This document shows positions 1,430 to 7,915 of a stretch of 64,000 bases of DNA, piece by piece (the first letter of the stretch is position 1; each line of letters starts with the position of its first letter). A program made the position numbers and the translations under genes. The notes under the pieces are model-generated. The model was not told where the DNA came from, ran no database searches, and worked only from the letters and a program-made list of their open reading frames with translations. Origin of the DNA: Scatophagus argus (Eukaryota; Chordata; Actinopteri; Scatophagidae); contig NC_058513.1 in the NCBI RefSeq assembly GCF_020382885.2, positions 14,905,641 through 14,969,640 on the forward strand, read 5' to 3'.

Positions 1430-3775
1430 TCACTGCTTCCCAAGTTTTTCCCTCAAGTACTGAGAAGCTACAAATTGCATTTTCTGGATGGCCAGCTGGG
1501 TATCTTCAGGGGAGATCCCAAGATGCCACACAGCCCGTATAGAACTTCCATGAAGGGGGAACATGAGAACGTGTATCCGCTGTCCCAGTGCAGCCTCCTC
1601 TCCCTCGCCAACCTGAGCCATGCGGGCACAGAACTCAGAGGGACTTAAACTGGGCTCCTGCAGATGGAAACGCACGATGTTCGTCTCCACAGAGGCCATG
1701 TCTATAGTGAACAGAGGAGGGTCACAGTCGTGCAGAGCTGGGAGAGGTGAGGAACAAAAAGGTTATGAGCAGGACAACGACAGCCTGATTTAATTTTCAC
1801 AGACAGGAATATGTGCTCCTCACCTTGAGCAAAGATTTTTGCACTGCGGTGATCTTCCTCCAGTCTTCCCACCATCTCCAGCAGTGACAGTTTCCCAGCT
1901 GCTGCTAATATGCCAGCTTGCCGCATCCCCCCACCCAGGACTTTACGGCACCGTACTGCCCTGGATATGAAGTCTTGAGGTCCAGCCAGTATGCTTCCCA
2001 CGGGGGCACCCAAACCCTGTGACACACCATAATGTCAATCTGACTTAAAGAAGTTTTATTTTGCATGCCTACAAGTTGTTGTTGTTGTTTTTTACTGACT
2101 CCGCTAACTTGTGGAATGTTATCAAAAATCTAAAATAATTCCAGGTTTTGCAGTCCCACCTTAGAGAGCGACACACTGACGGTGTGTGTGTGCTGCAGTA
2201 TGGTGGATGGAGGCACCCCCTGGGCTACAGCAGCGTTCATCACCCTGGCTCCATCCATGTGAACAGACAGACCATATCTGTCTGCTAAAGCACGAACCTT
2301 GAAGGTGGAAACAAACCATCCACAGATGATCAAACCTGCTGGACTCGCAAAATATGATGTTCCTGGCTACATACTTCAACACACACACACCTCCTGCAGG
2401 AAGGTCAGAGGTAGCACACGCCCCCCTAGTACGTTGTGCGTGTTCTCCACGCATATGAGGCGTGAGCGGGGGTAGTGTGGGTCGGGGTAACCGTGGCGGA
2501 TCTTTGATTCCAGCTGCTGCAAGTCCAATCTTCCGTCAGGGAGCGTGGTTACTAAGCTGGCATGGACACCGGCCACCTGTGTCAACACACAAATGCACAC
2601 TGACGTACAGATGAGGGGGGCAGGAGTGCAGAGATCCAGGTGGCACACTCACCTGTGCGCTCCCTCCTTGCTCGTAGATGTGCATATGGGACAGATCGCC
2701 AGCAAGCATCTCGTCGCCGCGCTCCCTGCAGTGCATCATCACTACATAATGACATGCATACACCTTTATGATCCTATAATAATAATAAAAAATTAATTTA
2801 TATATGTAATAATAAAAATAATAACAAATTGATTCAGATTCTGCCAGCGAATGCACAGCTCACCTGCGATAAGATTACTCATAGTTCCAGAGGGAACAAA
2901 CAGTGCGGCCTCCATCTGAAACATGTCAGCCGCAATCTTCTGCAACTCTGCAGAAAGCAGACGGATAATGCAAGATTGGGTGGCAGTTCTCAAGTAAAGA
3001 CGCAGCTTGACTGCAGTCATATTAAAGCAAATTCCCCCCTGACATTCAACTTGTGCAGTCAAATTCAAGGTCTAAGGACAGAGGAAAGGTATAGTACAGA
3101 TTCTAAAGCCAATTGTAACTTTAGGCTATAATAAATAAAATTAATTTTAAGCTCCTGCTGTGTCAGAATACTTAAAAATCTGCTTCTTGGACTTTACTCT
3201 TGTTGTTTACTTATTAATTAATGTTGGCAACTCGGTGGCTTCTAGGGATGATGCTCTACTTGAGGGGTCACAAAATGTACTATTTACTATTAAATGCACT
3301 AGTTTTGCAGCTGATGCAGACTTGATCACGTCTTCAACAAAATGCAGATGCACAATTCTGCAAGAATAAAGCATTACCAACTGGTTCAACAAGTTTCTAA
3401 TCAAACAGAGCAGCTCACACAGTACATAGATCATACATAAAGGCACCATAACGACGCAACCCTTCGGCTCTAACCGTTGACTGTCGGGTCTTCTCCCATC
3501 GCGTCATCTCCGACCTCAGCCTCGGCCATGGCCTGCCGCATCGCCGGCCCAGGCTTGGTCACCGTGTCGCTGCGGAGGTCCACCACCCGGGTCTGGGTCG
3601 CTCCTCCCGGTCCCGGGTAGCCATTTTTCCTCATGTTGGAGTAGTCTCTCGCGGAACTCCTTCCCAGAACGAGGGCGGTTGCTGCATGTCGAGCACCGAG
3701 CGGTTTGCTCGAAGCGACGACAACCTGGTTTAAAAGTTTGAGCATAACTCTGCAGGAGAATGTGTTCAAGTGCAT
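1430..3775 (-). CDS. tha1: L-threonine aldolase, copy A (7 exons)
   Basis: PLP-dependent enzyme that cleaves L-threonine or L-allo-threonine to glycine and acetaldehyde. Coding exons on the minus strand: 3775-3475, 2947-2864, 2741-2653, 2576-2391, 2297-2160, 2016-1824, 1737-1430. All junctions are GT-AG with matching phase, and the sum is 1299 nt, giving 432 residues. Family motifs appear in order: [48 protein letters not shown], then SLSK with the Schiff-base lysine (about Lys266), GLGAPVGS and GGGMRQAG (294-301). The N-terminal stretch of about 60 residues is basic with few acidic residues and may be a mitochondrial presequence; that is inference. The start is supported by the matching ATG in copy B. 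Human THA1P at the syntenic site is a pseudogene; this copy looks intact, with all conserved residues checked present. Confidence 0.95.
1443..2960. repeat. Near-identical duplicated block, tha1 copy A side
   Basis: This block pairs with 4942-6425 in direct orientation. It covers exon 7, up to the last few codons before the stop, through exon 2, introns included. Introns are as similar as exons, with only scattered substitutions. The main gap is an AT-rich stretch of roughly 45 bp in this copy near 2780-2830. Similarity stops sharply inside the last exon on the left and just past the exon 2 acceptor on the right. Confidence 0.93.

Positions 3776-7915: not shown

Follow-up and report, generated by a model that had tools for sequence, protein, structure and literature searches.

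Two tandem copies of the L-threonine aldolase gene (Tha1) in Scatophagus argus are nearly identical from exon 2 to exon 7, introns included, and strongly diverged in exon 1 and its surroundings. We attribute this pattern to an old tandem duplication of the whole gene, followed by non-crossover interlocus gene conversion over exons 2-7, in more than one event and most likely from copy A to copy B, a reading to which we assign a probability of about 0.87. It starts from four direct observations: the contrast in divergence along the gene, residual homology on both flanks of the homogenised block, the number of copies in the genome, and the patchiness of the differences within the block.

The Tha1 locus and its two genes

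The sequence analysed, called the window in the following, is a stretch of 64,000 nt from the forward strand of S. argus contig NC_058513.1 (assembly GCF_020382885.2, positions 14,905,641-14,969,640). It harbours two tandem Tha1 genes of seven exons each, both on the minus strand. Copy A spans positions 3775-1430 and has an open frame of 432 residues, copy B spans 7915-4932 with an open frame of 428 residues, and the introns of both are of the GT-AG type. The exon boundaries of both copies (Table 1) were placed by hand from motifs, without transcripts. Intron 1 measures 527 bp in copy A and 1211 bp in copy B; introns 2-6 are small (76-143 bp). Both proteins match the PF01212 profile at positions 1-284 of 288, copy A with 330 and copy B with 306 bits at a cut-off of 27. 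The best match of copy A among solved structures is 8pum, which is an entry of mouse Tha1, and this mouse enzyme is described as a hydroxytrimethyllysine aldolase (PMC11016064).

Mouse Tha1 is reported to lie between Birc5 and Socs3 and to have seven exons, and for pufferfish one single seven-exon Tha1 gene is given (PMC555945). In the window a SOCS3-like frame with an SH2 domain and SOCS3 matches is found at 19149-19721 (minus strand). Because the seven exons and the SOCS3-like neighbour are as at mouse Tha1, the window most likely contains the ancestral Tha1 locus, carrying a tandem duplicate. The agreement of the seven-exon structure with the mouse and pufferfish genes further points to a whole gene as the ancestor of each copy. 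Both share with the vertebrate Tha1/GLY1 genes, as far as these are described in PMC555945 and PMC11016064, the seven exons, the N-terminal leader, the PF01212 domain and the SOCS3 neighbour. They differ from the single pufferfish gene (PMC555945) in forming a tandem pair, of which copy B is altered at conserved sites.

At the gathering threshold, an Rfam search of the whole window found nothing besides the tRNA gene listed in Table 1. Beyond position 9000 there are 55 frames with a length of 110 residues or more, and Pfam was applied to 10 of them; it found the SH2 domain of the SOCS3-like frame and no domain in the other nine. Between the two Tha1 genes (3970-4319) lies a very common dispersed repeat, with at least 39 other places at 86-89% identity when 40 out of 2072 first-look candidates were scored. 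A second dispersed repeat is located upstream of exon 1 of copy B; 39 of its 43 genome matches are other places overlapping the range, at 72-97% identity.

Table 1. Positions of the Tha1 copies and associated features in the window.
Feature	Position	Strand	Remarks
Copy A, exon 1 (leader and N-terminus of the enzyme)	3475..3775	-	splice sites, open frame
Copy A, exons 2-7 with introns 2-6	2864-2947, 2653-2741, 2391-2576, 2160-2297, 1824-2016, 1430-1737	-	
Copy B, exon 1	7624..7915	-	splice sites, open frame
Copy B, exons 2-7 with introns 2-6	6329-6412, 6164-6252, 5902-6087, 5665-5802, 5329-5521, 4932-5236	-	
Homogenised block, A side	1443..2960	-	98.1% identity to 4942-6425
Homogenised block, B side	4942..6425	-	98.1% identity to 1443-2960
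Least diverged sub-tract (intron 6 and exon 7)	1443..1823; partner 4942-5328	-	0/381 differences, one 6-bp indel
Exon 6 divergence pocket	1894..1924; partner 5399-5429	-	GGGMRQAG (A), GGGIRHAG (B); 6 differences in 31 bp
Most diverged sub-tract (exon 2 and intron 2)	2742..2947; partner 6253-6412	-	10/160 differences, 46-bp indel
Old diverged 3' end and flank of copy A	1383..1442	-	in register with 4882-4941 of copy B
Copy A upstream block	3812..3947	-	putative promoter, by position
Copy B upstream block	8388..8523	-	putative promoter, by position
Dispersed repeat between upstream block and exon 1 of copy B	8022..8362	.	36 bp at this place in copy A
tRNA-Leu	577-658	+	downstream of copy A

A near-identical body behind diverged first exons

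The two sides of the block differ at 28 of 1472 aligned columns and by three indels (46, 6 and 6 bp). There is no contrast between exons, with 19 differences in 985 columns, and introns, with 9 in 487 (Fisher P=1.0). For the 328 codons of exons 2-7 we obtained a dS of 0.043, a dN of 0.014 and a synonymous difference of 4.2% (Nei-Gojobori). The right edge of the block is situated 13 bp upstream of exon 2, the left edge inside exon 7, where 13 bases (copy A) or 10 bases (copy B) remain up to the end of the stop codon. Only copy A contains, at 2785-2830 in intron 2, an A/T-rich stretch of 46 bp.

Exon 1 differs between the copies at 93 of 292 positions (31.9%). Its 97 codons give a dN of 0.30, a synonymous difference of 59% and a dS of 1.17, a value so near to saturation that it reads as "old" and no more (Nei-Gojobori). 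Neutral divergence therefore changes in a sharp step between adjoining parts of the two paralogs, from a dS of 1.17 to one of 0.043, and the synonymous contrast between exon 1 and exons 2-7 is highly significant (Fisher P about 8e-23, from rounded counts). A forced alignment of the introns 1 shows differences at 283 of its 511 columns, which is near random; a single weak local match (48 columns at 75%) was equalled in one out of 150 shuffles. The upstream blocks share 73.5% identity over 136 bp, a value reached in none of 150 shuffles. A preliminary description of this DNA had called the two blocks nearly identical including their introns, had placed the left edge of identity within the last exon, and had considered exon 1, intron 1 and the promoters to be older and more diverged. 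The figures given here agree with all of these points.

Old homology on both flanks and the number of copies

Beyond the 3' edge of the block the two copies stay in register. Among the first 30 bases 19 match (shuffle mean 7.7, P 5e-5) and among the first 60 bases 28 (shuffle mean 15.8, P 1.5e-4), and a local comparison of 1 kb of 3' flank yielded nothing beyond chance, 59 of 150 shuffles being as good. Just past the edge on the intron 1 side the matches are at shuffle level (4/20, 8/30, 11/40), which is why the start of the block is set 13 bp before exon 2; on this side the old flanking homology resumes only at exon 1. Older collinear homology thus flanks the block on both sides, although on the 3' side it extends over only about 30-60 bp.

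To count the copies, the S. argus assembly (570.67 Mb, 48 contigs) was searched. The body (exons 2-7) gave two matches, all 14 matches of a protein search fell inside copies A and B, and the matches of exon 1 with its upstream block were the query copy A and, in two pieces, copy B. Within the window, further remnants of exons 2-7 are at chance level (best stray hits tblastn E 0.08 and blastn E 0.28). Two bodies and two first exons are found in the genome, and so there is no gain or loss of copies. A body replaced between old collinear flanks without gain of a copy argues for conversion rather than for a re-duplication or a crossover with one edge.

A partial re-duplication, in which exons 2-7 of copy A were inserted into intron 1 of copy B and the old exons 2-7 of copy B were lost, would account for the identity with its sharp edges as well as for the edge on the intron 1 side, which has no adjoining old homology. 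However, it requires two steps, an insertion and the removal of the old body, and a remnant of a second body is not above chance in the window and was not found in the genome. The homology past the 3' edge, which continues in register through the stop codon (19/30), would not be expected at an insertion junction. We therefore consider a partial re-duplication improbable, and of the two explanations offered by the preliminary description, conversion or partial re-duplication, the results support the former and not the latter.

Unequal crossing-over is common in tandem arrays. Growth to three genes and subsequent contraction, leaving a fused B/A gene beside copy A, would yield identical bodies behind differing first exons. 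As this process leaves one edge, copy B should then possess the 3' UTR and the downstream sequence of copy A, whereas the two copies already part just before the stop codon and their 3' flanks are old and different, which makes this origin quite improbable. Near-identical tandem blocks can also arise from assembly errors, here either haplotypes placed one after the other or a contig entered more than once. Such an artefact is very improbable, because there are strong differences in the flanks (32% in exon 1), both copies carry indels of their own, copy B has a repeat of its own, and the assembly comprises 571 Mb in 48 contigs. Purifying selection that holds exons 2-7 alike while exon 1 drifts would fit the conservation of the catalytic body across the family, but the introns and the synonymous sites of the body are alike too while those of exon 1 are not, so that this can practically be dismissed, and the earlier argument that intron identity excludes selection holds for selection on the protein.

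Patchiness within the block

The differences within the block are not spread evenly. Exon 2 and intron 2 contain 10 in 160 columns, exons 3-5 together with introns 3-5 contain 10 in 725, exon 6 contains 7 in 193, the stretch from intron 6 to exon 7 none in 381, and one more is found in the 13 bp of intron 1. Local divergence within the block thus ranges from 0 to 6%. Compared with permutations the differences are clustered (dispersion 2.35, P=0.0018); the longest run free of substitutions comprises 401 columns (P=0.003), and five differences fall within 30 columns (P=0.035). Because of this heterogeneity we speak of more than one tract. Moreover, most estimates of mean tract length in interlocus conversion given in PMC3924818 are between 50 and several hundred bp, and the 1.5-kb block exceeds most of them, which is a further reason to propose several tracts. 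Several conversion tracts likely make up the block, of which the intron 6-exon 7 sub-tract would be the youngest. The preliminary description had assumed a recent conversion tract; conversion is retained, but the heterogeneous divergence makes more than one tract likely.

The events may be pictured as follows. The whole Tha1 gene would have been duplicated in tandem long ago, and the resulting copies A and B would have diverged along their full length. Later conversion would have replaced exons 2-7, most likely by copying A onto B. Strand invasion would begin in the conserved exons and carry along the small introns 2-6, and the tracts would end where homology has been lost, namely at the unrelated large introns 1 and, at the opposite end, at the 3' UTR. 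Lying outside the tracts, exon 1 with the leader and the promoter would retain the old divergence. That exon 1 escaped although it is 68% alike may be due to its position as an island isolated by introns of 527 and 1211 bp. The exon 6 pocket and the exon 2 edge would then represent older or less recently converted sequence.

Candidate donor of the proposed conversion and state of copy B

For a comparison the best 80, all bacterial, of at least 576 confirmed relatives were used. The relatives were found via two exon 1 motifs, at residues 63-71 and 82-90, and conservation at the motifs is therefore partly by choice; the sites named below lie outside both. Over residues 63-409, with at least 60 sequences per column, 86 columns are at least 90% conserved among these 80 relatives. 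Copy A alone deviates at none of these columns, copy B alone at six (T73A, M79V, T98I, T122I, M297I and Q299H, in the numbering of copy A) and both copies at eight. Copy B also carries G94E (G in 69/80) and N100I (N in 57/80), at columns below the 90% threshold. Like T73A, M79V and T98I, these two changes fall in exon 1. At residues 81, 104, 174, 239 and 324 it is copy B which agrees with mouse, and copy A differs. Depending on the criterion, the donor tests gave a binomial P of 0.012 or 0.055, and Fisher tests gave P values of 0.15 and 0.45. By these weak tests the shared body looks A-like, which suggests copy A as the donor.

In mouse Tha1, Thr98, Asp211, Arg214, Lys267 and Arg274 are reported to contact PLP (PMC11016064). 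An alignment gives a constant offset of +24 from mouse to copy A numbering, so that the catalytic lysine and the PLP-contact set of mouse (Lys242, Asp211, Arg214, Thr98, Lys267, Arg274 and His123) correspond to residues 266, 235, 238, 122, 291, 298 and 147 of copy A. Copy A has kept all seven. Copy B has kept six including the catalytic lysine; at the place of Thr98 it has an isoleucine, as does one of the 80 bacterial relatives. At residue 299 of the copy A numbering, copy B has a histidine instead of a glutamine which is found in 80 out of 80 bacterial relatives. This histidine and the isoleucine at the PLP-contact threonine are encoded in 5329-5521 and 6329-6412, respectively, the two most diverged parts of the block.

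Copy B may be decaying or functionally altered. Simple decay is disfavoured, because in exon 1 the 38 codons of the catalytic part show 8 nonsynonymous versus 16 synonymous differences, corresponding to a dN/dS of 0.09 as an average of the two copies, and the frame of copy B is open over its full length. Under a bolder and rather doubtful idea, copy B would represent an ancient paralog that has a promoter and a leader of its own and an altered PLP pocket, and its catalytic body would repeatedly have been re-supplied from copy A.

Known cases and significance

The Tha1 pair is a new instance of a known process, an ordinary kind of event with close precedents. As in the interlocus conversion between paralogs treated in PMC3924818, homogenisation is non-reciprocal and partial and diverged flanks are retained. 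Mammalian CYP1A1 and CYP1A2 are likewise converted in part (the first 500 bp of exon 2, and exon 5) with the rest old; there this was shown by four-sequence trees across species (PMC3199271), whereas our case is built on the divergence contrast and the introns of one genome. The hybrid LWS opsin gene A180 of the guppy is also a fish duplicate whose ends match different paralogs, introns included, but it has one junction, the last intron and exon being carried along with the 3' UTR (PMC2527612), in contrast to the two edges and two old ends found here. In the chimaeric BEX/WEX/GASP genes conversion also keeps parts of a gene with separate histories; in those genes homogenisation affects the 5' UTR, and it is the coding part that has diverged (PMC1274310), the reverse of the situation in Tha1. 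Among the matches listed for threonine aldolase and for gene conversion in teleost tandem duplicates there was no earlier report of this Tha1 pair.

The S. argus genes are a clean case of tandem paralogs with a two-edged conversion tract that would end, on either side, where homology had been lost. The pair also offers a natural system for testing if a diverging enzyme copy can be kept alive by conversion. If the body of copy B is indeed re-supplied from copy A, a gene tree of the body would date the duplication as recent, while exon 1 would show it to be old. Conversion would then keep the core of the enzyme unified, whereas targeting, regulation and a few active-site residues (T122I, M297I, Q299H) would stay different, and these differences would either be kept by selection, or copy B would decay and get patched.
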